A stretch of DNA of 22,436 nucleotides, from positions 1 to 22,436 of the IMG/VR virus record IMGVR_UViG_3300020733_000084. The stretch is one strand, 5' to 3'. A model generated the notes under the pieces. The model had not been told where the DNA came from, did not search any database, and saw nothing but the letters and a program-made list of their open reading frames with translations. Below, piece by piece: positions 493-21,906 of the stretch. The position numbers and the translations under genes are program-made. Numbering within the stretch: position 1 is the first letter of the stretch; each line of letters starts with the position of its first letter. This stretch comes from a virus.

Positions 493-529
493 ATGATAAA
501 CTTAGTGGAAATTACTTCGTGGGGCCTCT

Positions 530-2484: not shown

Positions 2485-2485
2485 T

Positions 2486-4921: not shown

Positions 4922-4929
4922 GGATAACC

Positions 4930-7900: not shown

Positions 7901-10900
7901 CTATCGAAGAGTTTTCTCCTATTCTTGCACAATTTAACAAAGCGCTAGAGGCTTTTCATGATGCTGTTGTAACACTAGATTCACCTGGTATTTATGTAGA
8001 TGCTTGGAATACTATTAATTTAAATAGTAAAGCGTTTGGTTTTAGTGAGGGTGTTTTCTTGCATGAATTAACCCACGCTGCTACTTACTATTCTTTAGAT
8101 GAGCAAAACTATAACGATCTAAGCCAGCAACAAAAAGAAGCTGTTAATGAATTAAAAGAACTATATGCCCATGCAACTGAACAGTTTGATAAGCATATGG
8201 TTAAAGGTTTGACAGATAATAAATACATTGAAGTAAATGGTCGTAAATTTATATATGATGAAATTTATTATGGCTTTAACAACATTCATGAGTTTGTAGC
8301 AGAAGCCTATTCAAATTGGGAATTCCAAGACTATCTAAAAGCCATGAAGTATCGTGGCACTGACACTGGTTTATGGAGCAAGTTTGTTCAAAGCGTTATT
8401 AAGTTATTTAAATTAGATAACGTATTAGGGTATACCCTAGCCCATGCCGATGCTATTATGCGTCCTACTCCTGTAGTCAATGGCTATGTAGCTAGTCCAG
8501 CGGTTGTACCTGCCAAGATACGCACGGTACTATCTGGGATGATGCCGACTAACCCAGGTAATCTTGGTTACGTTAATAATTTGTTTAATGGTAAACCCGA
8601 ATTTAGTATGGCTAAAGATGCCATAAAAAACTTTTTAACCAGCGTTAATGATACTGTTCGTCAATATTATTTGGGTGCTTTTACTTTACGTCAGTTAGAT
8701 GAAATTATTGGACGCCGTATTCCACAGGTTCGTGAATTTATTAATAGCACCGAACGCATGCTTGATAGCCGCAATCAACAACTAGAAAAAACAAGGGACA
8801 TTATTAACCCTTGGATGGAATGGCAAAACAAAAATCCAAAAGAAAGCGAGAAGCTTAATGCTTTGATGATTGACTCTACTTTACTTGGTGAAGATCCTGA
8901 CGCTAAAAACGGCAAAACTTCTGATAAAGATATTAATGACGCATGGAATAACCTAAGCGACCAGGCTAAAGATATATACCGAAAGGTTCGTGATTTTTAT
9001 AAACAACAATATGAAAATTACGTATCAATAATTCTTGATAATAAAAAACAATCTATGCTAGGCGCAGGTTTTAGTGAAGCCGATATTGCTGCACACGATA
9101 GAATTAAAAAGTTAAATATTACTGGTATTAAAGAACTACGTGCTCGGCTTGAGAAAAAAGGTCTAGCTGAACCAGATATACGTGCAACTATTGCTGCTGG
9201 TATAAAAGAAGCATTATTAGCTAAAGGGTTTACTAATGAAGAAATTGATGCACACAACCAGTTGTTTGCTATTGAAGATCACTTTGCTCGTAATAAAGTA
9301 GAACCATATTTCCCAATTCGTCGTTTTGGTAAATTCTCAGCTCAATTCTTTAAGGGCAAACAAAAAGAATTTTATACATTTGAATCGTCTTTTGCACGTG
9401 ATAAATTTGTAAGAAAACGTTTAGAAGAATTAGGTAAAACATTTGATCGTCAAAATGATTTGCATTTGGGTAACTCTATACAAGATTTAACTTCATCTAA
9501 CTTGCAAGACTTTGAGTTTTTAAAAAATCTTAGAGACATGATTCAAAATACTCAGGGTGCTGATACTACAGAATTACGTGGCAATTTAAATGCCGCTTTG
9601 GACCAGCTTTATTATTTGACTCTTCCAGATAAAAGCGTACGTAAGATGTTCCTTAACCGTAAAGGAACTGCTGGTATGGATAAAGATATGCTTCGTGCCT
9701 TTGCGCAGTCGGCGTTTCATATGGCCTATCAACAATCTCGTTTTAAGTTTAGCCGTGAACTATCTGGTCACTTAGAAAGAGCACGCCAGTTTGCTTTTGA
9801 TAAAGGCGACATAGAAGGTAAAGTAGATAAGGACTACGTAAAAGAATTAAGCGAGCGCTACAAATTAATTATGAATCCGCCAGATAGCGGCCCCGTTGCA
9901 GGGTTCTTATCCGGTGCTTCTTTTGTATGGTACATGACCTCACCAGCTTCGGCTATAACAAATATGTTAGGTGTACCAGCAGTAGGCTTTCCGGTAATAT
10001 CCGCACGCTACGGTGCTGGAGGAACTGCACGAGCTATGAGAGACTACGCATCTAAGTTTATGAAATCTGGACTGCGTGATGCCGACGGCAATCTTAACTT
10101 CTTCTCACTATCTAATAACGAAAATATCCTATCTAAACTAGAGCGGGAAGCCTATGATCAGTTTGTAGCTGATGGATTATTAGATGTTACATTGCCACAC
10201 GACATTGTCGGCTTAGCCGAAACACCATCTAATCTATATAAAGCACGGTTTCAAAAGGCTATGAACTGGGTTAGTATGCCGTTCCATGTAACAGAACGTG
10301 CCAACCGTGAGATTGTAGCTATGACTTCTTATAAGTTAGCATACGAAAAGTTTATGTCCAAAGGATATAGCGAGAAAGCTGCACAAGAAAAAGCTATTGA
10401 AACAGCTAAAGATTTAACATATAAATCAATGTTTGATTATTCAACATTAAATAAACCTCGTTATTTCCAAAACCCAAGCTTAAAAGTAATTTTGCAATTT
10501 AAACAGTTCTCTCAGCAAATGACTTACTTATTAGCTCGCAGTGCTTATGAATCTATTGGTAAACAGTATTTGCCATATAAAGATTTAGTTGCTATGGAGA
10601 ATGAGGCAAAGAATAATCGTACTAAGTTTGATCCTAAAATGCAGGAAATGCTTAATGATCTTCGTAGTATTCGTGAGTCTATTAGAGAAGACCATAGGCA
10701 GAATAAACCTGGGCTTCCTCCACTTACAGAAGATGAACTGGCTAAAGCTACCGATGACTTTATAAAAGAAACTAGAAGAGAAGCTAGAGCACGTCTTGCT
10801 GGAACTTTAGGTATGACTGCAATTTTTGCTGGGGCTACGGGTTTACCCTTATGGTGGTTGGTATCCGGAATTATGAACGCCATGCACGCAGCTTTTGGTG

Positions 10901-11670
10901 ATGAGGACGATACATGGGATTTTGACAACTGGTTTAAGAACTGGTGTGCCCATACCTTTGGTGGCTTTGTAGGTGATTCTATATCCCGTGGCATAATATC
11001 TCAGACTCTTGGGGCTAACGTAGCCGACCGACTTAGTTTAAATGACCTATGGTTTAGGGATGCTCGTAAGAGTCCTGATGAAGTAACGGCTATGCAGAAC
11101 TTTGTATTTAATGCTCTTGGTCCCACAGCGGGACTAGCTATGAGCTTTGCCGACGCATCTAAACAATGGAGAGAAGGTAATCTTGAGCGAGCTATAGAAA
11201 CAGCCAGCCCAGCCTTTGTTAAGAACTTCCTAAAGGGCGGACGGTTTGCGGTTGAGGGTAGGGCCACAACCTTGCGTGGAAATGAGCTTGTAGGCGACAT
11301 TACGGGGGCCGAAGCAGGATGGCAAGCATTAGGGTTTACCCCAGAACGTGTAGCCCAAAGACAGAAGGCCGACATTGAAATGAAAGCGGCTGAGCAGCAA
11401 ATACTTAACCGCCGTCAATCTTTGCTAGATGCATTCTTTATGGGTATAGATAACCAAGATGCTGATATGGTAGACCGGACTATGGAGAGAATAGGGCAGT
11501 TTAATTTAGCTAATCCAGGTGTTGCCATTACCGGTAGAAACTTAAGCCGTTCGGTACGTGGTCGCTTTAAGCAACGTATCTTAGCCGAAACTACAGGCGG
11601 TATACCAATTAATAAGAAATTGATTGGGGAGCTTAGCAGCATGGGCGACTACGGCGATCCCGACGAATAA
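4930..11670 (+). CDS. Giant polyvalent virion/ejection protein with HExxH metallopeptidase motif (2,246 aa)
   Basis: A strong TAAGGA site precedes the ATG. Order of regions: two FW motifs near the N-terminus (DFWQND at 3, NFWEKD at 19); a Gly/Ala-rich hydrophobic stretch at about 103-166; a low-complexity Gly/Thr/Glu/Pro region with coiled coil (about 330-560); a zinc-protease motif HELTH at 1045-1049 with HEFVAEA at 1120-1126 offering a third ligand (E1121 or E1125); PYFPIRRFGKF from 1458; FDYSTLNKPR at 1835 and QFKQFSQQMTYLL at 1856; a strongly hydrophobic segment at about 1956-1982 (LPLWWLVSGIM); and a soluble C-terminus. The 1458 and 1835-1868 motifs recur in very large phage polyvalent/ejection proteins. 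It is likely packaged in the capsid and injected, where it may form a channel and cleave a host or phage protein. The protease substrate is unknown. It is the last gene of the plus-strand block. Confidence 0.75.
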   Translation: MADFWQNDVVANKAPAADNFWEKDKAVEAALKKEEEPEKEATTVSQLVGGFKQVGADYDTFLKSLMSPNEAAKEAAKRQEEIQKETGHVRGLDELSEAYKNDGIIGAVGEVASQAPGAIASSTGQMSTAIAGNVGGAAIGTAIMPGIGTTIGGYLGGALALFPQFYAENLAEQARDQQEKGEPVDVNRGKAALAAAGQAGLEEAGMAYAYGKNLLKSIVGKMPVTAVEKAAAQEALVESAKSTLASVAKGAGKVALEESFVNPAQDILQRAQAGEDLFSKEAIEGYGAAIYGSILQSPLGAVGGLHETRAARKELAAKGLDRNGQPLPTPPADNNAFTEATNYENTGNVAGTSEPGVSVPGEQGGAESGIAGTTAGGMGRTELPAGGVTTREEELDNKLEEVNKKINSARAYIKDISEVDPNDERVDQAKEHLFGLQEEAKSLEQARAEVKSEPVEAEEEPKIAVVGARKPKAPGQIGFDFNAPEQPAPEEMTVPPAKEAGMQLEQQGKLPEMKAPEPIEEPETARMNLVGPAENVMAPITTFFNSIKPATITPEQVSQYHNNVKGFLNDVAEFVGGKSTEEVKRYQEEGQPEPTPVTGPDVSAPLEPGPELDKRMAVLNNFFDSLSLAPKEKEALTSGLVKQLPGMSVTDQTNAFRSLLRLPNINTVRGIKELREKFYDAVSRYDRRRTGQDDSALPYSSRDTMRSTDPLVERRINKAIRDLENIPKDERTSADNAAHTYFRAWPYITAMRSAAFDLAVPFNSRSNGSTYAGQTSETAKEFAKWVEENLPAQEFRRFEATVNEYKREIARADQAIENMNKRQQTGKVGTIYERMLGRAPTGKVPGVFDAGLNKKPGEVVKLDPKDFYQLHPGVVAKIQQGDLKGALTLLAKTPSPQASNKVKFNAKLAQRLLDLNLQTSLLTDNQETMAVRLVKEANGQRRMVLQHFQSYEWGNELIKKYGLDKSPTNEQNIRDIYKGLSEIAVNKPNISIEEFSPILAQFNKALEAFHDAVVTLDSPGIYVDAWNTINLNSKAFGFSEGVFLHELTHAATYYSLDEQNYNDLSQQQKEAVNELKELYAHATEQFDKHMVKGLTDNKYIEVNGRKFIYDEIYYGFNNIHEFVAEAYSNWEFQDYLKAMKYRGTDTGLWSKFVQSVIKLFKLDNVLGYTLAHADAIMRPTPVVNGYVASPAVVPAKIRTVLSGMMPTNPGNLGYVNNLFNGKPEFSMAKDAIKNFLTSVNDTVRQYYLGAFTLRQLDEIIGRRIPQVREFINSTERMLDSRNQQLEKTRDIINPWMEWQNKNPKESEKLNALMIDSTLLGEDPDAKNGKTSDKDINDAWNNLSDQAKDIYRKVRDFYKQQYENYVSIILDNKKQSMLGAGFSEADIAAHDRIKKLNITGIKELRARLEKKGLAEPDIRATIAAGIKEALLAKGFTNEEIDAHNQLFAIEDHFARNKVEPYFPIRRFGKFSAQFFKGKQKEFYTFESSFARDKFVRKRLEELGKTFDRQNDLHLGNSIQDLTSSNLQDFEFLKNLRDMIQNTQGADTTELRGNLNAALDQLYYLTLPDKSVRKMFLNRKGTAGMDKDMLRAFAQSAFHMAYQQSRFKFSRELSGHLERARQFAFDKGDIEGKVDKDYVKELSERYKLIMNPPDSGPVAGFLSGASFVWYMTSPASAITNMLGVPAVGFPVISARYGAGGTARAMRDYASKFMKSGLRDADGNLNFFSLSNNENILSKLEREAYDQFVADGLLDVTLPHDIVGLAETPSNLYKARFQKAMNWVSMPFHVTERANREIVAMTSYKLAYEKFMSKGYSEKAAQEKAIETAKDLTYKSMFDYSTLNKPRYFQNPSLKVILQFKQFSQQMTYLLARSAYESIGKQYLPYKDLVAMENEAKNNRTKFDPKMQEMLNDLRSIRESIREDHRQNKPGLPPLTEDELAKATDDFIKETRREARARLAGTLGMTAIFAGATGLPLWWLVSGIMNAMHAAFGDEDDTWDFDNWFKNWCAHTFGGFVGDSISRGIISQTLGANVADRLSLNDLWFRDARKSPDEVTAMQNFVFNALGPTAGLAMSFADASKQWREGNLERAIETASPAFVKNFLKGGRFAVEGRATTLRGNELVGDITGAEAGWQALGFTPERVAQRQKADIEMKAAEQQILNRRQSLLDAFFMGIDNQDADMVDRTMERIGQFNLANPGVAITGRNLSRSVRGRFKQRILAETTGGIPINKKLIGELSSMGDYGDPDE

Positions 11671-11693
11671 AAAACCCCACCGCTAAGGTGGGG
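11669..11693 (-). terminator. Rho-independent terminator for the minus-strand operon
   Basis: A perfect 7-bp GC-rich stem, CCCCACC at 11675-11681 and GGTGGGG at 11687-11693, encloses a 5-base loop. Read on the minus strand the stem is followed at once by six T residues (plus-strand A run 11669-11674), the layout of an intrinsic terminator for the replication block. On the plus strand the stem is followed by CAAACGG without a U-tract, so it should stop plus-strand transcripts poorly. The T-tract overlaps the TAA stop codon of the giant virion gene. Confidence 0.9.
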
Positions 11694-11752
11694 CAAACGG
11701 AATCAACCGAGGAAAACGAAGTAGCCCAAAGAAAGACTACGTGGTAATAATA

Positions 11753-11950
11753 CTACAAAATCCGCCAAACCCGCAAGCCACTAATACCTTTTTCCACTAC
11801 AACCCTAGTTTTTATTTCATATCCTAAGCGTCTTGTAGTTTTTAAAATGGTAGCCTTAGCCCCTTCTGTATCCAAACAAGGGATAAAAAAGGAAGAACCT
11901 ATTACAAAGTTTTTCCAATTAACTCGGAAGTCCAGACCGTGGATCAACAT
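11753..11950 (-). CDS. Small conserved phage protein (65 aa), function unknown
   Basis: This frame overlaps the 3' end of the primase-helicase gene by 32 bases and ends with TAG at 11755-11753, about 60 bases before the terminator. The protein has a W-K-N-F-x-x-GSSFFIPCLDTEGAK segment (about residues 12-31) followed by a basic helix (ATILKTTRRLGYEIKTRV) and ends RVVVEKGISGLRVWRIL (from about 49). I recognise this two-part pattern from short uncharacterised phage genes; the GSSFF-P and GLRVWR parts are the conserved bits. It may be a small nucleic-acid or protein-binding fold, with no catalytic motif seen. The ATG at 11950 lacks a clear ribosome site, so translation may depend on coupling to the upstream gene or start slightly downstream. 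Confidence 0.6.
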   Translation of the reverse strand: MLIHGLDFRVNWKNFVIGSSFFIPCLDTEGAKATILKTTRRLGYEIKTRVVVEKGISGLRVWRIL

Positions 11951-14759
11951 CTACAATAGCATTCTTGGCTTCTTCGATAAACTGGTCAGTGTCTTGGAAG
12001 TGGGCATTATTCATATCAAACAAAAATGCGTCCACAGTCGGCGACGTAATCTTAGTGCCTTTACCTAGTCGCTTATTAACCTTACCCAAAAATGCTTTAT
12101 CAGCTTGCAAAGAAGTTAGCACATCTTTTAAAGTAATCTGATTGTCAGAACAATACTTACGGAACTGTTTAGCGCTAATATAAATATGCTTATTATCCGG
12201 TTCAATTCGTACAAACAAATCATTAAACTTAGGTTCAAGAATAGGTAGCTGTTCCATGCCAGAACGCTTATCAGCTTTACCATTAATGACTAATATGGCT
12301 GCACGATGATGGTTCATAAATTCACCAATTACGCTAGAGTTGTTTTGTGCAGGCATCTTAACTTCAGTGCGCATTACTTTAAGTTCTTTAACTATCCAAT
12401 CAAAGACACGTTTAATATCGAAGTCAATAATTTTTAAATCTTTAGCAATCAAAGCCCCAGCAATATTACATGCGCATATAGCAGACCAGAAACGTTCTCT
12501 GTTTGTTAGGCCGACAGCCTTGTCCAAGCGTTGTTGAACTTGCATAACTAGGTCAATGGCCGACTCTAAGTCGCTTACCAAATACTTAGCATACTCCACA
12601 CCAGCATGCCCATAATTATCGTACAAACGATTAAATATAACGTCGGCTTCTTCTTTAGTAAGATTTCCAGTAAGTTCAATTTTGTACTCCAGTAGTCGCA
12701 TGAATTCGCCATCAGGCGTAGATTTTAAAGATGACAATTTGTCATAGAAAGATGCATTAGAACTGCACAATACTATGGTCGCCCATTTAGTAGCATTAAC
12801 CCGTTCAGCATTAGTATGCTGTTGCATCCGGTTCTTGCCCCGACCTTGCGATGCGCTATAAGCTAAGTCAGAAAAGTGGTCGCCTGATAGTTTAGTTACC
12901 TCATCAATCGTTACAGGCAAATTATTCATTACACCCATACGGTGAATGATGGCATTCATAGTATCTTTCCACTGTAACATTAACTCTTCTGGATGACCCC
13001 ATACGCTGTTACACATCTTGAGAATAGTAGACTTACCTGTACCTGAGGTGTTGTTAATCAGATTGATAATGCCGCCTTTAAAATTTAAATGTTTAAGTAG
13101 CGGCGCACCAAACGCAGTAAAGAAACCAAACGCATGTGGTTCAAACCCTTCGGCATCGTAGACCTTAATTGTTTTCTTCCAAGCATCATAGTCACCTGCT
13201 GGTTTTAACCAATCAGATAATGATCCTGTTGCTACAGATGGCGGACTATACGCAACTCTATCTGCAGATATTTCTTGTTCACCAATAATAAACTTTGTAT
13301 CTTTGTCGGCCCAGCCAAATTGATTTCTCATAACTTCTAGCTCCATTTTATGTTGTAAATTTTTAGCAGATACAATGACATACGTCATAACTGCTTCCAT
13401 TTGTTTTTTCCCGCCAAGCACACCATAAAAACCTAGCTTTTCTTTTAATTTATCCAATGACATTACGTCGGTAGCTGGCAAAGAAAATTCTTTTACGCCA
13501 TCTCTTGGCAAATGCAATCTAAACCAAAGTGACTCGCCTTTGGCTGGATCATATAAACGTTTGACTATATAGAAGTCATGTTCATAAATGTTTATCGCAT
13601 CGTCGCCGTTTTCATCGTCTTGAATCCGGACATAAACGCCACCATTTTTGCCCCGAAAGTAAGGGAACGGGTAATCTGGAATTTCGAAAACTTCTTCTTT
13701 ACCATTCTCGTTCTCTTCCACGACGACATTATCTTCTGACTCAGCAATTTCGGATCCGAGCTGGATCGGAGAAGAAATCTTGCCCTTGTGCGGGCATTCC
13801 GTGCACGACGTTGGGTTAAGCTTTTGAAATATGTTGCATGTAAAAGGGCCCTTTGTCGAACGAGCTTTACGCTCTGTTGACTCCGATGAATACTCGGGAT
13901 GCCCCGATGATATTTGGTGTATCGCTGTGTCATGATCTACGCAGTGAGCTGCAATCGACAGCCCTGCCCTCCATAATGGTTCTTCAATTGTGTCTTGGTT
14001 TACTACAATGTTTTCAAGCTGGGCACATCCTTTGCCATTCATGGTTTTAATCATGATGGTTTTAAAGCGGCTTTGCTTATTACCTAACAATGCTAAGGCT
14101 GACTCGCTCATTTGGCGAGGTACCCAATCAGGGGCTATCAACACGCCGATGGTAGCTTTAATAGCTTCGTACTCAAGCTCAGGTTCAACCGCCAATATTT
14201 CTACAGGCAAACCCTCTTCATCTTTAAAGTTAAGTGTGCCGGGTACACGTAGGATAGATGCGTTGTCGGCAGTGCGTGATGGGTCAGCATGGAACTCATA
14301 TTCTTCGCACAATGTTTTAAGACGTTCAGCTACTGGCTTCCACTGTAATCGGTCGACTACAGTTGTTAATCTCCAATACGCATGTATGCCACGCCCTGAA
14401 TTGACAATCGTCGGCAAAGGTAGGTGCACCTTTGCACAGAACTCCTTGAGTGCCGATAAGCCTTCAGCTTGGTCTGCATATGGTTTGCCTAAACCACAAT
14501 CGACGTCAATCCAAAATGCTTTAATTAAATTGCCGTTAGGCTGTATGCGCCCTTCTTTTGGATCAATATACTTAGCACAAGCAAAATACACGTTGCATTT
14601 TTCTTGTAGCAGTTTGTCAATCTGCGTCTCTGCCTCAGCAAGAGTTGCATGAAATGTTTGTACTGGGGATTTTGACCCATCTTGCCGTAAGCCGACTATG
14701 CAGTAATGCCCCTCCCCTTCGGGTGGTAACACCTTGTCTAATAGATCTGTTGTAGGCAC
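11919..14759 (-). CDS. Primase-helicase: AEP-type primase fused to DUF927-type ATPase (946 aa)
   Basis: The start is GTG at 14759, immediately after the TAA of the preceding HTH gene. The N-terminal part is an archaeo-eukaryotic primase-like domain. It shows FWIDVD (D85, D87, metal-binding pair), NSGRGIHAYWRL (H126), and HADPSRTADN followed by RVPGTLNFK (D159 probably the third acidic residue). A linker has cysteines at 308, 319 and 322 followed by PHKGK, a probable zinc site. The C-terminal ATPase has Walker A TSGTGKST (571-578, K576), Walker B VTIDEV (616-621), and the SASQGRGKNRM segment typical of DUF927 proteins. By analogy it lays primers at the fork and unwinds DNA for the family A polymerase encoded upstream. 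No DnaB-type or T7 gp4-type helicase is seen in the window. Whether the primase also extends DNA (PrimPol) cannot be told. Confidence 0.85.
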   Translation of the reverse strand: MPTTDLLDKVLPPEGEGHYCIVGLRQDGSKSPVQTFHATLAEAETQIDKLLQEKCNVYFACAKYIDPKEGRIQPNGNLIKAFWIDVDCGLGKPYADQAEGLSALKEFCAKVHLPLPTIVNSGRGIHAYWRLTTVVDRLQWKPVAERLKTLCEEYEFHADPSRTADNASILRVPGTLNFKDEEGLPVEILAVEPELEYEAIKATIGVLIAPDWVPRQMSESALALLGNKQSRFKTIMIKTMNGKGCAQLENIVVNQDTIEEPLWRAGLSIAAHCVDHDTAIHQISSGHPEYSSESTERKARSTKGPFTCNIFQKLNPTSCTECPHKGKISSPIQLGSEIAESEDNVVVEENENGKEEVFEIPDYPFPYFRGKNGGVYVRIQDDENGDDAINIYEHDFYIVKRLYDPAKGESLWFRLHLPRDGVKEFSLPATDVMSLDKLKEKLGFYGVLGGKKQMEAVMTYVIVSAKNLQHKMELEVMRNQFGWADKDTKFIIGEQEISADRVAYSPPSVATGSLSDWLKPAGDYDAWKKTIKVYDAEGFEPHAFGFFTAFGAPLLKHLNFKGGIINLINNTSGTGKSTILKMCNSVWGHPEELMLQWKDTMNAIIHRMGVMNNLPVTIDEVTKLSGDHFSDLAYSASQGRGKNRMQQHTNAERVNATKWATIVLCSSNASFYDKLSSLKSTPDGEFMRLLEYKIELTGNLTKEEADVIFNRLYDNYGHAGVEYAKYLVSDLESAIDLVMQVQQRLDKAVGLTNRERFWSAICACNIAGALIAKDLKIIDFDIKRVFDWIVKELKVMRTEVKMPAQNNSSVIGEFMNHHRAAILVINGKADKRSGMEQLPILEPKFNDLFVRIEPDNKHIYISAKQFRKYCSDNQITLKDVLTSLQADKAFLGKVNKRLGKGTKITSPTVDAFLFDMNNAHFQDTDQFIEEAKNAIVDVDPRSGLPS

Positions 14760-14993
14760 TTAGATTTGTTCTAATAAAAAGTCTTGGACTAACTCAGCTT
14801 TACGTGGGTGAGGTTTAGACACACCAGTAAACCATGAATAAATAGTCATGCGAGATACCTTGAAGTACCTCGCAATCCTATCAACCGGAACGTCGTTTTT
14901 AATACACCACTTGCCAAGCTGTACCCCAACTAGGTCAGGGTTAGCAGCTTGGATGGCTTGTACTAAACGATAACTATAACCTCTTAAACTCAT
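14760..14993 (-). CDS. Small helix-turn-helix DNA-binding protein (77 aa)
   Basis: I chose the ATG at 14993 because it overlaps the TGA of the upstream gene (ATGA). An in-frame TTG at 15014 would add seven residues lying inside that gene. The C-terminal half contains a clear helix-turn-helix, VDRIARYFKVSRMTIYSWFT (about residues 41-60), followed by GVSKPHPRKAELVQDFL, much like Cro/C1-type or replication-associated regulators. The N-terminus (YSYRLVQAIQAANPDLVGVQ) is probably a helix for packing or dimerisation. It sits between a putative ssDNA-binding protein and the primase, with zero or minus spacing to both, so it may regulate this operon or help load the replisome on the origin. The DNA target is unknown. 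Confidence 0.7.
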   Translation of the reverse strand: MSLRGYSYRLVQAIQAANPDLVGVQLGKWCIKNDVPVDRIARYFKVSRMTIYSWFTGVSKPHPRKAELVQDFLLEQI

Positions 14994-15886
14994 TCTGAAT
15001 CGTCGGTAGACCAACCACTCATCACGGCTTTGAGATCACGTTTAGGTGTAGGCTCGGCTTTCTTTTCAACACGTTTTTTTGGCTCTTCAATTTCAGTTTC
15101 AACTGCATTTAAAACTGGATCTGCCATTTTTGGTGCTGGAGCAGCTAGCTTCTTAACGCCGTCGGCCTGCGCAACCGTCATAGTAATAGCGTTTATAGAT
15201 GCTGGAGTTTCACTTAACTTCTTAGCCTGTTCCCACTCGTGCTTCTCTAAGAAACGTACTGGGCGGAAGAACAACTTACCTACTGTAGAGTCTTCATCAA
15301 ACCGCATTTCAGTAACCAAGTTAATTAAGTTGTAGCCTTGTGAGCCAACATACTTAGCGTATTGGTTAAATGGCATGTGATCTAAATCGCCTGGGTCTTT
15401 CATATCATAGAAGATTGACTTAGATTGCAATGTCATTTGATAAACATCGCCTTCCAAATCAGATGCCAACGCTACTGCAATTCGGCGGTTCTTACGACAA
15501 GCTTTAGTATTACCTTGACCGGAACCGTTAATGTCTTGTGGACATCCTACGCAAGCAGAAGCTTGTGGTTCTTTAACAGATGGATCAGGTTTCTCACCGT
15601 CGTTAGACCAGCAGTCAGGTGGTGCAGCATCAGCTTTAGGATCCCATGCTTTAGCATAGAACGTTCTTGAAATATGCTTAGATGCATTAACAATTACAAC
15701 TTCCAACTTATCGCTGTTTGTTTTAGAAATATCAGATCCATTTACTTTTAATACAAATCTATTATTCCCAAGAGCAATCCGCTTAACTTGCGCACCACCA
15801 CCCGATAGGGCTTTGGTTACATCATCAAGCTGAACCTCTTTAAGGTAGTCAGGTAGTTGTTGATTAAAAAGGGCGACGTTACTCAT
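14990..15886 (-). CDS. Zinc-binding protein, putative single-stranded DNA-binding protein (298 aa)
   Basis: The ATG overlaps the upstream TGA (ATGA) and has AAGGAGA nearby in the upstream gene's last codons. The N-terminal part (about residues 1-90) is beta-rich (RIALGNNRFVLKVNG, LEVVIVNASKHISRTFYAKA). Cysteines at 92, 112, 115 and 130 with CVGCP in the centre look like a zinc site. About 140-235 holds further strands (RRIAVAL, GDVYQMTL). The C-terminal 60 residues are low-complexity Ala/Pro/Lys/Glu and end in an acidic tip, WSTDDSE. A beta-rich core with a flexible acidic tail is the layout of ssDNA-binding proteins that recruit partners through the tail, and the position just before the primase fits. 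No database match was run; a different nucleic-acid-binding role is possible. Confidence 0.5.
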   Translation of the reverse strand: MSNVALFNQQLPDYLKEVQLDDVTKALSGGGAQVKRIALGNNRFVLKVNGSDISKTNSDKLEVVIVNASKHISRTFYAKAWDPKADAAPPDCWSNDGEKPDPSVKEPQASACVGCPQDINGSGQGNTKACRKNRRIAVALASDLEGDVYQMTLQSKSIFYDMKDPGDLDHMPFNQYAKYVGSQGYNLINLVTEMRFDEDSTVGKLFFRPVRFLEKHEWEQAKKLSETPASINAITMTVAQADGVKKLAAPAPKMADPVLNAVETEIEEPKKRVEKKAEPTPKRDLKAVMSGWSTDDSE

Positions 15887-16302
15887 TTGCTTCTCCTTAC
15901 GGTAATAGCGTATGTGCGATCCACATTAAGTCCGGCGGGATGCAAATCCGGATTCTCCTCCAAAAATTGTTTCATATTGGATTGATGAATTCTTCTTTCT
16001 AATAACTCAGGAGCATTCTGTTCAAACAAGAACTCATAGAATTTCTCCCAATCATTAGTCCAGTAGCGTGACTTGACACCACGCATAGCCGTACCGTGCG
16101 CAGTCTTAATGCTGTCGGCCCCGGTTTGTTTGCATACATCAAGTATCTGCTGGGAAATTAGTTCAAGCTGCTCATTTAAATCAGCTTCTTTAGCTTCAAG
16201 TTCACGACGGATTTCATCTCGAGCGTCACGAATCTTGATATAGACTTCGACTAGTTTGTCTACGCTGACGACGGGTTGCTCTACCACTTTGGTATTTTCC
16301 AT
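15883..16302 (-). CDS. Conserved phage protein with N-terminal coiled coil (139 aa)
   Basis: This is the first gene behind the promoter at 16345-16373, with AAGGA seven bases before the ATG. Residues about 10-60 form a charged coiled coil (VEVYIKIRDARDEIRRELEA, then KEADLNEQLELI). Then follow a conserved SIKTAHGTAMRGVKSRYWTN segment (about 64-83), DWEKFYEFLFEQNAPELLE, and a C-terminal FLEENPDLHPAGLNVD and TYAITVRR strand. I know this order from uncharacterised proteins in early regions of tailed phages. The coiled coil plus globular end is reminiscent of Gam-type proteins, which shield DNA ends from host nucleases, but I cannot show homology. It is co-transcribed with replication genes and overlaps the next gene by four bases. 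Confidence 0.65.
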   Translation of the reverse strand: MENTKVVEQPVVSVDKLVEVYIKIRDARDEIRRELEAKEADLNEQLELISQQILDVCKQTGADSIKTAHGTAMRGVKSRYWTNDWEKFYEFLFEQNAPELLERRIHQSNMKQFLEENPDLHPAGLNVDRTYAITVRRSK

Positions 16303-16309
16303 TTCGTTT

Positions 16310-16314
16310 TCCTT
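16310..16314 (-). promoter_or_regulatory. Ribosome binding site of the 139-aa gene
   Basis: AAGGA on the minus strand lies seven bases upstream of the ATG at 16302-16300, inside one of the few true intergenic gaps of the block. It fixes the start of the first gene of the promoter-proximal unit. Confidence 0.75.
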
Positions 16315-16323
16315 TAATTGTTG

Positions 16324-16337
16324 CGGGTCTTCGCCCG
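16324..16337 (-). other. Small stem-loop at the predicted 5' end of the transcript
   Basis: CGGG and CCCG arms (16337-16334 and 16327-16324 read on the minus strand) surround a six-base CGAAGA loop. With the -10 box ending at 16345, transcription should start near 16338-16337, so the stem-loop would sit at the extreme 5' end of the RNA, ahead of the ribosome site. Such 5' hairpins can shield mRNA from decay. It lacks a U-tract, so it is not a terminator. Confidence 0.5.
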
Positions 16338-16344
16338 ATAATTA

Positions 16345-16373
16345 ATACTACTACAATTACTTTACTCTGTCAA
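16345..16373 (-). promoter_or_regulatory. Sigma-70-type promoter for the SSB-like/primase unit
   Basis: On the minus strand a consensus TTGACA (-35, plus coordinates 16368-16373) is followed after exactly 17 bases by TAGTAT (-10, 16345-16350, four of six consensus bases), in an AT-rich stretch. The -35 box lies within the last codons of the SNF2 helicase gene. It would be read by host RNA polymerase and drive the 139-aa protein, the putative ssDNA-binding protein, the HTH protein, the primase-helicase and the 65-aa gene, down to the terminator at 11669. Confidence 0.8.
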
Positions 16374-17930
16374 TTCTTTTTCATCAACTTCTTTTTTATA
16401 TAAGTCAATAATTTTTTCATGCACATCTAATTTATTTTGCAACATGTGGTACAGCCTTGTCTCTACGGGACTACCCTTAATATGCACAATAGTCATAGCA
16501 TTCTTTTGTCCTTGCCTATCAATACGTGCATTGGCTTGTAGGTATGTTTCTATGGATGTTACCGGTGCGTACCAAATGATTGTATCAGCAGCAGTTAGCG
16601 TGACCCCATGTGACGCAGCTTGAGGTTGAATAATAAGAACTCTTGGGTGTTCTGTCTCTTGAAATTTTTTAAATATTTCGGTTCGTTTATTAACCGTTAC
16701 GGCCCCATTTATAACGTCACAGGTAATACCTGCCCCTCTCAAATGCTCCGTGAGTAGCTCTATTGTATGCGTGAACGGCACAAATACAAGCACTTTGTGA
16801 CTAGCTTCTTGGATAACTTCCTCGATAACTCGTAAGCGATTAGACACGTCAAATTCAACAACAGCACCAGTGTCAGAATAGACAGCCCCACCAGAAATTT
16901 GCAGAAGTTTATTAAGGTTAATAGCAGCATTGACGGTACTGATTTCTTCTCCATCTGCCACCATGAGCATTTCTTTTTTGAGAAGTTTATAATATTTCTC
17001 CTGTTGCGCAGTAAGGGGGGCGTCTCTGTAAACATGTGTGACCTCTGGTAAGTCTAGGCAATCTTTCTTTTCAAATCTTATTGCTGGTTGGAGCGCATTA
17101 AATACTACTTGTTGTGCATCGGGTTTGGGCATCCATCGGTATTTGCTTACGTTAATCATAGTCTGATCTCTGAAAGCACCAAAGAATCTAGGCACGTTAT
17201 CCGGTACACACAGCTTTGCTAAACCAAAAGCATCAGTAGGACTTTGTGCTGCTGGAGTACCAGTCATCATCCATAACCAAGTTCTTGGGGTTACTATATG
17301 GTTAAGGGTTTTCCAGCGCTGAGTAGTAATAGTCTTATAGGCATTTGCCTCATCAACAATAATGAGATCAAAATTGTTTCTCATAATATCCTCGGCTACA
17401 ATTTCAACGCCGTCATAATTGATAATTACAAATTGTGCGTCGCTGTCAATAATAGCTTTACGCTTTAACCTATCTCCATAAGCTACGCCAACCTTGCGGT
17501 GCATAGCAAATTTAAATAAATCAGCCTGCCAAGCAGACTGCGTAATAGATAAGGGGCAGATAATAAGCGCACGTAGTACACGCTTTGTTTCCATCAAATA
17601 ATCAGCAGCCCAAATTGCTGATGCCGTTTTACCTGTACCTTGCTCATTAAAACAAAACGATCTTTGATTAAGCGTAAGGAAGTTGGCAGTTTCTTTTTGG
17701 TGTGCCATAGGTTTAAATAACCCCGGCCACTTGTAATCTTTTTGGATAGGCGAAGGAATGTTTTTTATCCTTAATTTATTTAATACTTGTGCTTCTTCTA
17801 AACCCCAATGAACTGCAACTTTATGGAGCTCGCCTTCCGTTTCTATAACTTCACTTTTAGGTATACATTCAGTTATTAAATTAGGTCGGCGGGTAGTAAT
17901 TACAATAGCTTTGTTATTTACTATTTCCAT
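16362..17930 (-). CDS. SNF2-type superfamily 2 helicase/ATPase (522 aa)
   Basis: Helicase motifs appear in order: a Q-motif-like FKPMAHQKETANFL (72-85); Walker A NEQGTGKT (95-102, K101); motif Ia ALIICPLSIT (121-130); Walker B IVDEAN (191-196, DEAN in place of DEAH); motif III MMTGTPAAQSP (221-231); motif V ASHGVTLTAADTII (439-452); motif VI QANARIDRQGQ (465-475). The motif VI form is characteristic of SNF2 ATPases, which move on duplex DNA rather than unwind it freely. Phage versions are thought to act in replication, recombination or removal of bound proteins. The ATG at 17930 overlaps the HNH gene by 17 bases. Length covers only the two ATPase lobes, with no added DNA-binding domain, which is usual for phage proteins. 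Confidence 0.9.
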   Translation of the reverse strand: MEIVNNKAIVITTRRPNLITECIPKSEVIETEGELHKVAVHWGLEEAQVLNKLRIKNIPSPIQKDYKWPGLFKPMAHQKETANFLTLNQRSFCFNEQGTGKTASAIWAADYLMETKRVLRALIICPLSITQSAWQADLFKFAMHRKVGVAYGDRLKRKAIIDSDAQFVIINYDGVEIVAEDIMRNNFDLIIVDEANAYKTITTQRWKTLNHIVTPRTWLWMMTGTPAAQSPTDAFGLAKLCVPDNVPRFFGAFRDQTMINVSKYRWMPKPDAQQVVFNALQPAIRFEKKDCLDLPEVTHVYRDAPLTAQQEKYYKLLKKEMLMVADGEEISTVNAAINLNKLLQISGGAVYSDTGAVVEFDVSNRLRVIEEVIQEASHKVLVFVPFTHTIELLTEHLRGAGITCDVINGAVTVNKRTEIFKKFQETEHPRVLIIQPQAASHGVTLTAADTIIWYAPVTSIETYLQANARIDRQGQKNAMTIVHIKGSPVETRLYHMLQNKLDVHEKIIDLYKKEVDEKELTE

Positions 17931-18210
17931 TTTTAGGTTTATTCCGTTTCATTGTATGGTCTGAGTTACGAGAATACGACCGGTTTGCGCTAGCTGCTTC
18001 TACTCTAAGATTAGACTTAACCGTTTTGCCACCTTTGGATAGTGGCGTTTTGTGGTCAACGTCTTTCCCATCCCCTTTGTGGGCTAGCCCAGCTTTCTCC
18101 ATAATTTTTCTAGCCTTATTTCTTTGGGCACGTTTTTTCTTAACGGCTGGCGTACCATCGTACATTTCATATTCATGTTTGTACGGTCTTGGCTTGTTCA
18201 CATAGGGCAT
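17914..18210 (-). CDS. HNH endonuclease (98 aa)
   Basis: I chose ATG at 18210, with AAGGAGA six bases upstream; a longer in-frame start at 18249 lies inside the neighbouring gene and lacks a ribosome site. The N-terminus is basic (KKKRAQRNKARKIMEKAG, about 24-41). The catalytic core is GDGKDVDHKTPLSKGG (46-61, with D52 and H53), then NLRV (67-70) and NRSYSRN (76-82), matching the short HNH family of phages. It should cut or nick DNA with a divalent metal at the H-N-H core. Phage HNH proteins may take part in packaging, recombination or homing. Placement between helicase and early genes does not favour a packaging role. It overlaps the upstream 70-aa gene by 38 bases. Confidence 0.85.
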   Translation of the reverse strand: MPYVNKPRPYKHEYEMYDGTPAVKKKRAQRNKARKIMEKAGLAHKGDGKDVDHKTPLSKGGKTVKSNLRVEAASANRSYSRNSDHTMKRNKPKNGNSK

Positions 18211-18385
18211 AGCGGTCTCCTTCTTTGCGGAAATAATATACAGAACCATCTGCTAGAACCATACATTTTATGCCGGTTTGTGGGTCATCACCAAGCATAT
18301 CTTTAATTATTTGTTCTACCTGTTCTTTATTAGGAGGGTCGGATGCTATCCAACCAGCAAAAGGTACGGGTTCAAAATTGTTCAT
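18173..18385 (-). CDS. Uncharacterised small protein (70 aa)
   Basis: The ATG overlaps the TGA of the 151-aa gene (ATGA). The protein begins MNNFEPVPFAGWIASDPPNK, followed by a helix (EQVEQIIKDMLGD, about 21-33) and strands (GIKCMVLADGSVYYFRKEGD, about 38-57). The last 13 codons overlap the HNH gene in another frame and supply its ribosome binding site, so the two are translationally linked. I do not recognise the family. The GSVYYF pattern suggests a small mixed alpha/beta fold. The overlaps at both ends and the fit to the coupling chain support a real gene. Confidence 0.6.
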   Translation of the reverse strand: MNNFEPVPFAGWIASDPPNKEQVEQIIKDMLGDDPQTGIKCMVLADGSVYYFRKEGDRYALCEQAKTVQT

Positions 18386-18837
18386 TTAATTTTCTTCTTT
18401 GCTAAACCACCCGCCCTGCGTAGGTCGCTGGAATGTAGTTTTTTAATATCTTTATCTTTAATCTGACCAGCTTTTTTGGCTATGACTGCAGCCTTTTTTC
18501 TCTTAACAAACTTATCTTCACTAGTAACAAAGCCACGCTTAGCATTCTTGTCTTTGATATGTTCTTTAACTTCTATTTGGTCATGTGCCCACTTTTTTGA
18601 AGGCGCCTCAATAATTACCCCAGTCTTTTTATCTTTGACTGCGGGCGCTACAATTTTTTCTTTTGTTGCCATGTACTTATCCTCTTCTCTCAAGGCTACG
18701 TTAATAGCCCACTGCACTTCTTCCCAAGTAGCCCTTTGCAGGATAACTGCCACATATTCCTGCCCCTTCCGAATATTATCAAACATTTCCTGTAATGTCT
18801 TGGCTTGCCATTTTTGTTTCTTTTTGGAACGTTTCAA
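18382..18837 (-). CDS. Basic conserved phage protein, TTG start (151 aa)
   Basis: The first usable start is TTG at 18837, which overlaps the stop of the sigma-like gene (TTGA), with AGAGGA six bases upstream. Residues 1-53 form a Lys-rich helical part (KKKQKWQAKTLQEMFDNIRK, then ATWEEVQWAINVALREED). From M56 (codon at 18672-18670, with AGAGG nearby) comes a Lys-rich linker and a KRGFVTSEDKFVKRKKAAVI segment followed by KKAGQIK and KLHSSDLRRAGG. The GFVTS-F-x-RKxAAxIAxxAGQ pattern is a conserved signature of uncharacterised phage proteins. It may bind nucleic acid given its charge. The N-terminal part may be a separate domain or a fusion; initiation at M56 would give 96 aa. Confidence 0.55.
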   Translation of the reverse strand: MKRSKKKQKWQAKTLQEMFDNIRKGQEYVAVILQRATWEEVQWAINVALREEDKYMATKEKIVAPAVKDKKTGVIIEAPSKKWAHDQIEVKEHIKDKNAKRGFVTSEDKFVKRKKAAVIAKKAGQIKDKDIKKLHSSDLRRAGGLAKKKIK

Positions 18838-19028
18838 AGCAGTTCCTCTTTTTTAAATCCTTTTTGTTTAAGTACTGCTTTAAACTTTTTCATAGCCCGT
18901 TTTTCTAATCCATTTATGCTTTCCCTTTGCATGCCTAATCTTTGGGCTATTTCTGCCTGTGTCATATCAAAATTAGACTGATCTTGTGCTTCGGGTATAA
19001 CTTCATTTATGTAATCTGCTATGCGCAT
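18834..19028 (-). CDS. Sigma-70 region 4-like helix-turn-helix protein (64 aa)
   Basis: The core is FDMTQAEIAQRLGMQRESIN followed by GLEKRAMKKFKAVLKQ, the helix-turn-helix and recognition helix typical of sigma factor region 4 (normally binding the -35 box). No region 2 is present. The start is uncertain: ATG at 19028 lies just after the upstream stop (19030-19032), while GTG at 19037 has GGAG eight bases before it and would add three residues. A frame extends to ATG 19109, but that part overlaps the well-supported 69-aa gene. It could redirect or block host RNA polymerase, or act as an ordinary repressor. Confidence 0.7.
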   Translation of the reverse strand: MRIADYINEVIPEAQDQSNFDMTQAEIAQRLGMQRESINGLEKRAMKKFKAVLKQKGFKKEELL

Positions 19029-19029
19029 C

Positions 19030-19239
19030 TTAGGCACTTTTATTTCTCCGTCTTGTTTTAACCGCAACAATACCAACTTCTGCTTCGGGTTCTGCCTTGC
19101 GTGCTTCAATCATAATGTCTGCTAACTCATACGCATTGGACGCTAAAACTTTATATGGCACTTCATCATTACTTCCCGATGCCATTAGCCCATTCAAAGC
19201 AAACATCGCAAAGCAATCCCTTAAATCATTCTCATTCAT
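19030..19239 (-). CDS. Conserved phage protein (69 aa), function unknown
   Basis: ATG at 19239 overlaps the TGA of the nuclease gene (ATGA); an in-frame TTG two codons earlier is less likely. The protein starts MNENDLRDCFAMFALNGLMA and has, at about residues 33-47, LASNAYELADIMIEARK, ending in a basic tail (KTRRRNKSA). The LRD-F-A-x-x-ALNG and AYxxADxMIEARK parts match a very common small phage protein of unknown role. It is mostly helical with no catalytic motif. It lies between the nuclease and the sigma-like protein and is likely co-expressed with both. Confidence 0.7.
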   Translation of the reverse strand: MNENDLRDCFAMFALNGLMASGSNDEVPYKVLASNAYELADIMIEARKAEPEAEVGIVAVKTRRRNKSA

Positions 19240-19907
19240 TTCCAATGCCCTTTTCCATTATGTTCACAATCTTTTACTGGGCAGAACTTTTTACAGGTAA
19301 AATTCGGCTTTGCATTCCACACGTTATTCTCGTGGGCGGCCTCTAATTTATCAGTTTCTTGTATCCATATAACCCACTTATCCGACGCTTCATATTTAAT
19401 GTAATTAGCTTTAACAAACTCCTCGCTTACTACAAAAGCCAAGCCAGCTTTAACTCTTTCTACGTGAGGGAAATGCTTAAACACGCACAGAGCCATAAGC
19501 TCTAACTGTTTAGTGTCGGCATACTGGGCAGACTTACCAGTCTTATAATCAATAATGTGTGCCACGTTATCGTTAATGATAACAAGGTCAGCTACGCCTC
19601 TAAACCAAACGTCTTTATCAAAGAACCCACAAGCCTCTAAGTCTTGGGTCAACCCCATCTTATACTCACAATGCTTTGTTCCCGGTATTTCTCTAAGAAC
19701 ATCCAATACTGGAGTAAGGAATGAGAACTTTTCCGGTACCGGCACACCATCTTTAATGTGATCTTCCGCAGCTTTATGGACTAACTTGCCATATAACATC
19801 TGCTCGGACTCGGGTTCTGTAATGTCCTTGATTACACGCAAATGATAGTATTTGCGAGGGCATTGCTGAAACAACCCAAGCGACGAGTATGACCAAGTTA
19901 TGCTCAT
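19236..19907 (-). CDS. RecB/Cas4-like PD-(D/E)XK nuclease with four conserved cysteines (223 aa)
   Basis: ATG at 19907 overlaps the TGA of the upstream 60-aa gene (ATGA); an earlier TTG at 19925 lies inside that gene. Starting MSITWSYSSLGLFQQCPRKY, it has the family pattern: C16 in the QQCPRKY segment, YGKLVHKAAEDH with H44, FRGVADLV (D107), IIDYKTGK (D120, K122), and KQLELMAL (Q134). The C-terminus has FTCKKFCPVKDC (C205, C209, C214). One early and three late cysteines suggest a 4Fe-4S cluster as in Cas4 and AddB. It probably degrades or trims DNA ends as an exonuclease during replication, recombination or host DNA breakdown. Its neighbours, polymerase upstream and helicase downstream, fit a recombination role. 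Confidence 0.85.
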   Translation of the reverse strand: MSITWSYSSLGLFQQCPRKYYHLRVIKDITEPESEQMLYGKLVHKAAEDHIKDGVPVPEKFSFLTPVLDVLREIPGTKHCEYKMGLTQDLEACGFFDKDVWFRGVADLVIINDNVAHIIDYKTGKSAQYADTKQLELMALCVFKHFPHVERVKAGLAFVVSEEFVKANYIKYEASDKWVIWIQETDKLEAAHENNVWNAKPNFTCKKFCPVKDCEHNGKGHWK

Positions 19908-20086
19908 TCTTTTGTGGGTATCCAAGTTTTAACTGCTGTGTTCATTAAACGTAATTCAACCTGTGCGTTCAAACAATGTTCGCTTGCTTCTACATAATTA
20001 TTTTTTAATAAAGCATCTTGTGCTAATTTAATTTCTTTTGTTGCTTCTAGATAATATGAGGAGTATTCCATCTTTATATTTTCCAT
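19904..20086 (-). CDS. Small helical protein (60 aa), function unknown
   Basis: The frame starts with ATG at 20086, inside the last codons of the DNA polymerase gene (13-base overlap). A second ATG at 20071 (residue 6) would begin after the polymerase stop; I cannot decide between them. The protein is one helical hairpin-like sequence (YYLEATKEIKLAQDALLKNN, then YVEASEHCLNAQVELRLMNT), ends in a stop overlapping the nuclease ATG, and contains no motif that I know. Its spacing and TGA/ATG coupling support a real gene. The helical pattern suggests a small TPR-like or dimerising adaptor, but this is speculation. Confidence 0.55.
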   Translation of the reverse strand: MENIKMEYSSYYLEATKEIKLAQDALLKNNYVEASEHCLNAQVELRLMNTAVKTWIPTKE

Positions 20087-21906
20087 TCTTCAATAGCCTT
20101 CTTGCTACTACAATCACCATAGGATTTCCCTACACCAAGTTCGCATGTCAATGGGAGTTCTTGAGCCCACTTAGGCCTCCATTTCATACACTCATCAATA
20201 TACAACATTGCAGGTTTAATTTCATCCTCGGGCACAACAGCCATTACCGCATCGTGTACGGTTAAAACTACTTTGTAACGTTTAGATATGCGTAGCATTT
20301 GCTCACCTATTACACATCTTGCTAGGGCTTGGCACACATTCTCCACCACTTTACCACCATAGATTTTTATTCGACCCCGTCGGCTTGCGTAAGAGTATTG
20401 TCCGTCTTGATCTTGTTGAAGGTCGGGGTAGTTGAGGAAGAGACCACTTGGCAATAAGAAACCATTCTCCGTAATGGTAAGCGCTTGCGGTTGATGCCCA
20501 ACTTGGCATACTTTTTTACTTTGGAGGGCACTGAGGGCACTATTAGCTTCTTGCCACAATCGGGGAATGTACGGATATCGAACTCTGTATACGTCAATAA
20601 TCCTAGCCGCCTCCGCATCTGTGATTTCCACCCCAAAAGTTTTGAGTTGTATACTAAACTTTCCAGCGCCCATGCCATACCCCGCACCGAGGATTGTCGT
20701 TTTACCCACGAACCGCTCGCTCGAATCAATTTTTTCTTCCGCCTTGTTATAGATAGCAGATGCCATGTTTTTGTATACATCCTCTCTCCTTTCGAACGCA
20801 TTAACTAAATCGTTTTGACCTGATAGCCACGCAACTATGCGAGCTTCAATCTGAGACGAGTCGGCATCGATTAAAACGTAACCTTCTTGGGAGATAATTG
20901 CATCTTTGAGAAGAGATTTTCTTGGTAGATTCTGAAGGTTAAGTTTATCGTCACCACCCCAACGCCCTGTATGGGCGGCATAATATCTAAGCGGTACTGG
21001 CATACGTCCTCGTTTAGATATATTGATAAAGCGTTCAGTTCTCGTTTCTTCAAGGGTAGATTTTGTACCCAATCTCGCAGCAACGATTGCTTGCACTCTT
21101 TCATCGGGATATTCAGACAACGCTTTAAAACCTTCATCATTTTTTGCAAACGCATACGTTTCTTTTCCTGTGGTAATTGATATTTTCATAGGTGGTTCTA
21201 CACCTAAAGATATTAGTAGTTCTGCTAGTTTAGGATTGGACATTAGGGTATCTTTATCTGCTACGCAAGCATTAAGTAATTTCTCTTTGCGGGCTTTAAC
21301 TTGCATCAGATGTTGTTCAAGCAAGACCGTGTCTAAAAATAGCGTCGGCTCTGCAAACATTTTGATAGTCAAACTAATTAGCTTTAACTCCGATAGGCTA
21401 AACCTAGGCAGTAGTATGTTAAATAAGCTGTATGTTAGCTCCACATCGTTATTACAATATCCACCGTATGCGCTAAGATCATCGACGCTAAAATCCGCAC
21501 GCCGCTTGTTGATCGCTTGTAATACTTCTGTCCCTTTTCGTCCCAAGTTATAACGCTCAACAAGTTTAGCAAGGGAGTTTCCAGCTTCCAAACCATCTGT
21601 CGCACGAGCCATGCTAAGCGTGTCCAGCCAAGCCATTGGTTGAATACCAAACCGCCAAGACAAAATAGCTGAGTCAAACATAGCATTATGGGCAAGAGCA
21701 AAAGAACTACTCCAGTCGTAGTTATGCAAGAAAGCCAATAACTCTTCGTGAGAACCGCTAAACCATTTTGTTTCATCATCATTCTCCTTTATAGATACAC
21801 CAATAACCTCAAAGCGATCATCACGCACATACTCTTCAGTCGTCAGCTTCGACAAACTAAAGTCCTGTGCGTAATAAGTTTCAAAATCTAAAGTTAAAAT
21901 ATTCAT
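20074..21906 (-). CDS. Family A DNA polymerase with 3'-5' proofreading exonuclease (610 aa)
   Basis: ATG at 21906 overlaps the upstream TGA (ATGA). The exonuclease keeps all four DEDDy acidic residues: LDFET (D7, E9), AHNAMFD (D78) and YCNND (Y150, D154). The polymerase has AHTGRWGG followed by LNLQNLPR (311-328), motif A DADSSQIEAR (347-356, catalytic D349), motif B RFVGKTTILGAGYGMG (398-413, R398, K402, Y410), and motif C LTVHDAVMA (548-556, D552). The residue equal to E. coli Phe762 is Leu406. The usual Glu after motif C His-Asp is Ala553. It synthesises the phage genome. Between about 190 and 305 there is only a short thumb with no T7-type thioredoxin-binding insertion. It belongs to the T7/PolI class and lacks a 5'-3' exonuclease domain. 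Confidence 0.95.
   Translation of the reverse strand: MNILTLDFETYYAQDFSLSKLTTEEYVRDDRFEVIGVSIKENDDETKWFSGSHEELLAFLHNYDWSSSFALAHNAMFDSAILSWRFGIQPMAWLDTLSMARATDGLEAGNSLAKLVERYNLGRKGTEVLQAINKRRADFSVDDLSAYGGYCNNDVELTYSLFNILLPRFSLSELKLISLTIKMFAEPTLFLDTVLLEQHLMQVKARKEKLLNACVADKDTLMSNPKLAELLISLGVEPPMKISITTGKETYAFAKNDEGFKALSEYPDERVQAIVAARLGTKSTLEETRTERFINISKRGRMPVPLRYYAAHTGRWGGDDKLNLQNLPRKSLLKDAIISQEGYVLIDADSSQIEARIVAWLSGQNDLVNAFERREDVYKNMASAIYNKAEEKIDSSERFVGKTTILGAGYGMGAGKFSIQLKTFGVEITDAEAARIIDVYRVRYPYIPRLWQEANSALSALQSKKVCQVGHQPQALTITENGFLLPSGLFLNYPDLQQDQDGQYSYASRRGRIKIYGGKVVENVCQALARCVIGEQMLRISKRYKVVLTVHDAVMAVVPEDEIKPAMLYIDECMKWRPKWAQELPLTCELGVGKSYGDCSSKKAIEEWKI

Follow-up and report, generated by a model that had tools for sequence, protein, structure and literature searches.

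The minus-strand gene block of the phage contig analysed here most likely represents a near-complete tailed-phage replication module centred on a self-contained 946-aa primase-helicase, in which an AEP primase is fused to a DUF927 motor; the probability of this reading, set out below, is put at about 0.8. The window, i.e. the whole stretch of DNA analysed, is the entire 22,436-bp IMG/VR record. It is an incomplete genome, a fragment of a tailed phage, and its source is a freshwater-type virus of bacteria. Genes of structural type occupy the plus strand from 187 to 11670, the last one encoding a 2246-aa polyvalent protein; a GNAT acetyltransferase gene is found amid them at 2026-2484 (PF00583, E=1.7e-11). 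A GC-rich hairpin (AAAACCCCACCGCTAAGGTGGGG; 11671-11695), read from the sequence and likely to be a terminator, lies between these genes and the convergent minus-strand block. The latter is co-directional and runs from 22217 to 11753, and its genes overlap or abut, the sole gap being 59 bp before the Gam-like gene. Starting from 22217, the order is DUF6378, PolA, Cas4/RecB-like nuclease, region-4-like sigma fragment, HNH, SNF2, Gam/Gp157-like protein, putative SSB, HTH protein, AEP-DUF927 and, last, at 11753, a 65-aa protein. When host or prophage copies were sought in the species genomes of GTDB, 69 pattern matches were obtained, none of which was confirmed as a relative.

An initial annotation had placed in this block an AEP-DUF927 protein, a PolI-class polymerase, an SNF2 motor, a putative SSB and a Fe-S-type nuclease. 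Domain matches and conserved residues confirmed each of these genes at its stated position, with conservation well above what chance would give, although the list was partial, leaving out the HNH and Gam-like genes and two small conserved genes. The gene for the 946-aa protein (11919-14759; like all features described below, on the minus strand) was predicted to encode an AEP primase, a helical domain with four cysteines, a DUF927 (MCM-like) helicase and a C-terminal winged-helix-like region. The AEP catalytic domain (residues 1-205; 14145-14759) contains D85xD87, S121GRGIH126, D159, R171, N177 and K179. These residues, among them the DxD motif (D85, D87), the SGRGIH motif (S121-H126) and D159, were invariant in 19 homologues with identities down to 30%, including those of Pseudomonas phage Rollin and Rhizobium phage RHph_TM27A. 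The Pfam Prim-Pol model did not match this domain; PHROG 2478 (DNA polymerase/primase) did, at residues 42-190 (E=1.7e-6). The structural model of the domain resembled the AEP domain of S-2L PrimPol (6zp9; Foldseek E=1.3e-6, TMt 0.71) and also RepB' (3h20/3h25; Foldseek, 1.9e-5). Judging from its catalytic motifs and predicted RRM-like primase fold, the N-terminal region belongs to the AEP superfamily.

The DUF927 match (PF06048, E=8.6e-29) covers residues 371-651, with 101.5 bits against a cut-off of 22.6. The predicted MCM-like AAA+ motor core (residues 504-788; 12396-13250) includes Walker A (GTGKST, 573-578) and Walker B (DE, 619-620) motifs, and G573, G575, K576, D619 and E620 were invariant in the most diverged relatives, down to 25% identity. 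Residues 504-788 aligned in sequence with positions 140-426 of the SCCmec helicase Cch (5dgk_A; E=8e-14), and part of the same segment aligned with the SaPIbov1 Rep (8tch; E=5e-8). Confidence in the full-length model is moderate (pLDDT 71.7, pTM 0.39; residues 629-689 poorly modelled), and the best Foldseek matches of this model were again 5dgk (5.4e-14) and 8tch (3.3e-11), in alignments about 600 columns long. The NCBIfam model SCCmet_Cch1 matched with E=1.8e-16, under its equivalog cut-off. The viral structure library contained full-length matches to proteins of about this size, which were labelled only ‘DUF927 domain-containing’ or ‘Replication protein B’. Sequence and predicted fold thus agree in indicating that the DUF927 region is homologous to the MCM-like helicases Cch and SaPIbov1 Rep. 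The C-terminal region (residues 809-935; 11955-12335) shows in the model a helix-helix-strand-strand, winged-helix-like arrangement, for which DNA or origin binding is possible. Since no convincing iteron or tandem-repeat origin was found beside the primase-helicase gene or in the relatives scanned, origin binding by this protein is unsupported.

The helical domain located between primase and motor (residues 230-335; 13755-14072) carries C245, C308, C319 and C322, and was considered PriCT-like or primase-large-subunit-like, with a metal or Fe-S cluster suspected. C308, C319 and C322, as well as a cysteine equivalent to C245, were invariant down to 25% identity, Rollin and RHph_TM27A included. 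A profile search of this domain against Pfam and PDB sequences, including PriL and Zn families, gave no match. A primase encoded by the Parageobacillus plasmid pGEOTH02 (locus L162, 309-2807) has an AEP domain and a four-cysteine region as in the 946-aa protein, but with a D5-type helicase instead of DUF927. The pairing of both with D5 suggests that the AEP and four-cysteine domains behave as one unit, which can be combined with different motors. The four-cysteine domain, placed here between primase and motor and recurring beside a D5 helicase in the plasmid, is the new detail. PriCT domains have been proposed to be related to the Fe-S domain of the large primase subunit of archaea and eukaryotes (PMC5862659), which makes a kinship of the four-cysteine region to that Fe-S domain attractive, but the profile searches lent it no support.

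The family A DNA polymerase (610 aa; 20074-21906) matched PF00476 (E=2.7e-36) and, in its 3′-5′ exonuclease part, PF01612 (E=2.7e-7). Its motif B (RFVGKTTILGAGYG, residues 398-411) has Leu at the position of Phe762 of Escherichia coli in 23 of the 23 IMG/VR family members examined, and alignment placed an equivalent Leu in the PolA of Rollin, RHph_TM27A, pSTEC648_2 and Effie. On the basis of residue 762 and of the neighbouring genes, the enzyme is assigned to the Leu762 type with SNF2 and RecB-like neighbours. The 522-aa SNF2-family ATPase (16362-17930; PF00176, E=3.7e-21; Helicase_C PF00271, E=5.1e-16) contains the motifs GTGKT (98-102), DEAN (193-196) and ARIDRQGQ (468-475), and was conserved in 63 sequences. 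The 229-aa Cas4/RecB-like PD-(D/E)XK nuclease (19236-19925; PDDEXK_1 PF12705, E=2e-17; TIGR00372 cas4, E=4.9e-6, below cut-off) has C22, C211, C215, C220, D113, D126 and K128 invariant in 40 sequences. Its PD-(D/E)XK residues, together with one N-terminal and three C-terminal cysteines, are those of the Cas4/AddB type, with a predicted Fe-S cluster.

The putative ssDNA-binding protein (298 aa; 14990-15886) combines a four-cysteine zinc motif, a disordered linker and a conserved acidic tip with a Trp (DLKAVMSGWSTDDSE). Its description as zinc-binding agrees with the invariance of C92, C112, C115 and C130 in 81 sequences, in which W292 was conserved too, and its model was beta-rich; an OB fold is, however, not proven, as sequence and fold searches of the PDB gave no significant match. 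The weak fold matches were to phiC31 RDF (E=0.013, the best), PrgE (E=0.39) and an entry that contains RPA (E=0.52). The first of these is an entry with a phiC31 integrase-RDF fusion, and a link between phage SSB-like proteins and recombination directionality factors may merit attention. Among the smaller genes, the 139-aa Gam/Sipho_Gp157-like, Pam3 gp33-like protein (15883-16302) matched PF23984 (E=9.5e-6) and PF22709 (E=0.0049), both below cut-off, and is syntenic in relatives. A 111-aa HNH endonuclease-like protein (17914-18249) matched PF01844 (E=0.0025) and PHROG 4590 (E=2.3e-21). An 84-aa HTH protein (14760-15014) abuts the primase-helicase start; its HTH matches were weak, and its position is kept across relatives. 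The conserved 65-aa ORF (11753-11950), downstream of the primase-helicase gene and overlapping it, adjoins the AEP-DUF927 gene in nearly all the tabulated IMG/VR loci that reach that far, while locus comparison showed it to be absent from Rollin and RHph_TM27A. Within this early block, a 91-aa sigma-70 region-4-like protein (18834-19109; PF04545, E=1.1e-6) has counterparts in few relatives.

The tabulated IMG/VR relatives retained the gene order of the block, with AEP-DUF927 identities of 48-100%, and the order PolA...SNF2-SSB-AEP-DUF927 was conserved in dozens of loci. Three annotated elements share the order of the module at AEP-DUF927 identities of only 24-33%. The arrangement PolA - SNF2 - Gam-like - SSB - AEP-DUF927 holds in Rollin (33% identity) and RHph_TM27A (24%), and the E. 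coli element pSTEC648_2 (CP061838.1; 27%) has PolA, SNF2 and DUF927 in matching order; the two unnamed genes that separate SNF2 from DUF927 correspond, by position only, to the Gam-like and SSB genes. pSTEC648_2 (loci L163, L165 and L166) is a 60.5-kb circular molecule with genes for a holin, a lysozyme, a 2318-aa protein and a ParB-like protein; although deposited as a ‘plasmid’, it looks like a phage-plasmid or an extrachromosomal phage. In RHph_TM27A (L002, 19689-22772; MN988461.1, QIG66907.1) and three close relatives, the AEP-DUF927 protein is labelled ‘putative integrase’, apparently a misannotation. A further relative, G001 (L130-L133; AEP-DUF927 78% identical), is 66,656 bp long and classed as linear; its 127-bp terminal direct repeat indicates that it is probably a complete genome. 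Upstream of PolA, G001 carries a gene pair for an AAA ATPase and a VWA/metallopeptidase (DUF2201) protein (L133, 209-2858), and a similar pair is present in RHph_TM27A. Between its nuclease and HNH genes (L130, 44-4893) there is a glycosylation-like cassette with fucosyltransferase-like, FkbM methyltransferase, SPASM radical SAM and glycosyltransferase 2 genes.

The initial annotation also held that no DnaB, gp4-type or TOPRIM protein was present, and proposed a search for another helicase or primase. The window showed no DnaB (DnaB_C), gp4-type or TOPRIM gene; because the record is an incomplete genome, absence was judged on relatives. DnaB_C and Toprim_2 were each found in none of 20 relatives, and AAA_25 (gp4/RepA-type) in none of nine. 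Rollin and RHph_TM27A, both circular records of about 61 kb, lacked DnaB and Toprim_2. In the probably complete G001, a Pfam search of 20 further ORFs, the larger ones outside the recognised module and mostly unidentified, revealed no helicase or primase. The absence of DnaB and gp4 was thus upheld, yet a candidate ring helicase is present, since the motor of the 946-aa protein matches Cch and SaPIbov1 Rep and keeps the Walker residues. The replicative helicase would then be neither missing nor exotic, the DUF927 region being, by sequence and model, the candidate.

In the mechanism proposed, the activities, the polarity and the division of labour are predicted from sequence. The DUF927 part most likely assembles into a hexamer of the MCM/Cch kind, a ring by which the fork is unwound, in the 3′-to-5′ direction if it behaves as Cch does, and the C-terminal winged-helix-like part may load the 946-aa protein onto DNA. 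The N-terminal AEP domain, aided by the four-cysteine helical domain, would prime the exposed strand, and the Leu762-type PolA would extend the primers and proofread. The zinc-motif putative SSB would cover single strands, while the Cas4/RecB-like nuclease and the HNH protein may process ends or branches. The SNF2 ATPase would act as an accessory fork-remodelling or strand-annealing motor and not as the replicative helicase. T4 UvsW and SMARCAL1 are motors of this kind and serve as a model for such a role.

The alternative that survives best, although it is improbable, is displacement synthesis: PolA itself would open the duplex, with help from SNF2, and AEP-DUF927 would serve only for priming or initiation. 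Such a view has been published for SNF2/Leu762 PolA phages, since work on environmental PolAs associated Leu762 with neighbouring SNF2 and RecB-like genes rather than with ring helicases and proposed that the polymerase may separate the strands (PMC6302109, PMC9069017). Strand displacement was observed in two of the five primer-extending Leu762 PolAs, nine of 14 Leu762 contigs carried an SNF2 gene and none had gp4 (PMC9069017), and the PolA described here is of the Leu762 type. Against this, the operon also contains the gene for a motor whose homologue is a demonstrated helicase and whose Walker residues are kept down to 25% identity. Moreover, the main text of PMC9069017 was found not to use the term ‘primase’, so that a fused primase-helicase, lying outside the classes scored, could have been missed.

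A survey of 18 other SNF2 phages, sampled across similarity rankings, bears on the same question. HMM searches detected SNF2 in all 18 and PolA in 16, and DnaB in none. A VapE-like ATPase was present in 12, within open frames of 769-1006 aa (four of these matches being below the Pfam cut-off), DUF927 in one, and a Prim-Pol AEP in two more (frames of 783-898 aa). For a sample that was chosen on SNF2 and is no census, these figures suggest that such phages usually have a fused AEP/AAA+ primase-helicase as their replicative helicase. The generalisation is incomplete, as three of the 18 (Gordonia Nina, Bas71 and Bhz9) had no recognised primase-helicase; DUF3987 was ruled out as their motor, and D5_N was detected in only one of 25 records. 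In Ruegeria phage vB_RpoS-V16 (MH015258.1, 48516-49682) the SNF2 match spans two in-frame TGA codons, which may reflect either an interrupted gene or a match running across neighbouring frames. Taken together, the results suggest that a fused primase-helicase, rather than PolA alone, unwinds DNA in Leu762 PolA/SNF2 phages.

Somewhat less probable still is that AEP-DUF927 is a self-loading initiator of the SaPI Rep kind that opens the origin, after which a host DnaB replisome takes over and the phage PolA is left for repair or recombination. The SaPIbov1 DUF927 homologue has indeed been described as a protein for replication initiation that has helicase activity (PMC7581432), but the phage retains a PolA, an SSB-like protein, a nuclease and a primase of its own, all in strict synteny, which would then be redundant, and no iteron origin was found. 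That the block serves mainly as a cassette for recombination, repair or anti-defence (SNF2, HNH and PD-(D/E)XK nuclease) is very unlikely. SNF2 proteins are known from DISARM and further defence systems (NCBIfam DrmD matched with E=1.3e-10, far below its cut-off), but the gene order is retained as a replication block across diverse phages, and a defence cassette was rejected because no polymerase/primase/helicase locus other than this block was found in the complete relative G001.

Each part of the module, and the AEP-DUF927 fusion itself, is already known; such fusions were listed in 2018 (Kazlauskas 2018, PMC5862659), and PMC10061031 also counts in favour of the primase-helicase explanation. 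Cch (PDB 5dgk), a DUF927 protein, is a demonstrated DNA-unwinding MCM-like helicase (PMC5862659, PMC7581432) that is reported to form a hexamer and to unwind 3′-to-5′ (PMC7581432). The match to the solved chains of Cch and SaPIbov1 Rep concerns the motor half only, the 946-aa protein having in addition the N-terminal AEP and four-cysteine domains. A comparable domain layout is that of the PrimPol-PV1 supergroup (PrimQH, All3500; PMC5862659), with an AEP, a PriCT/zinc-binding domain, a DUF927 ATPase and a C-terminal winged helix, although the four-cysteine domain found here matches no Pfam family. NrS-1 PrimPol-helicase and S-2L PrimPol likewise have an AEP within a large phage replication protein, and the NrS-1 polymerase combines priming with polymerisation (PMC7102993); here, in contrast, a proofreading PolA is present as a separate protein and the helicase is DUF927. 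Thermocrinis virus OS3173/TOSV also combines PolA and a DUF927 motor in one replication module, but its DUF927 is separate or fused to the polymerase (PMC7689252) and not to an AEP. The SNF2 and RecB-like neighbours are shared with the virioplankton Leu762 PolA arrangement (PMC6302109, PMC9069017), although the helicase classes scored in those studies did not include a fused primase-helicase.

The gene set differs from the T7 and T4 replisomes, as had been noted from the outset: the gp4-type TOPRIM primase-helicase of the T7 type is lacking, and, while the T4 type has a family B polymerase, a DnaB-like gp41 and a gp61 primase, the polymerase here is of family A and DnaB_C is absent. The initial annotation had further stated that the cooperation between the parts is not well described. 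This is true, and holds for the role of SNF2 too, but the kind of replisome is not uncharted (PMC5862659, PMC7581432, PMC6302109, PMC9069017).

A broader and more speculative reading, which we regard as possible but doubtful, is that the 946-aa chain brings together in one polypeptide a fork start of archaeal/eukaryotic style, with a PriS-like primase, a PriL-like Fe-S domain (the four-cysteine domain) and an MCM-like ring, working with a bacterial-type PolA, and that fused primase-helicases are the overlooked replicative helicases of Leu762-PolA/SNF2 phages. If true, this would overturn the proposal that the polymerase of these phages unwinds DNA alone. The AEP and four-cysteine unit appears with different motors, DUF927 in this phage and D5 in the Parageobacillus plasmid, and the AEP-DUF927 motor is predicted to be related to the one that human cells use to unwind their DNA. 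Annotated relatives in which the module could be studied can now be named, among them the 60-kb circular phage-like element in E. coli. The module may thereby offer a testable answer to a published question, namely what unwinds the DNA of the abundant environmental Leu762-PolA/SNF2 phages that lack DnaB and gp4.
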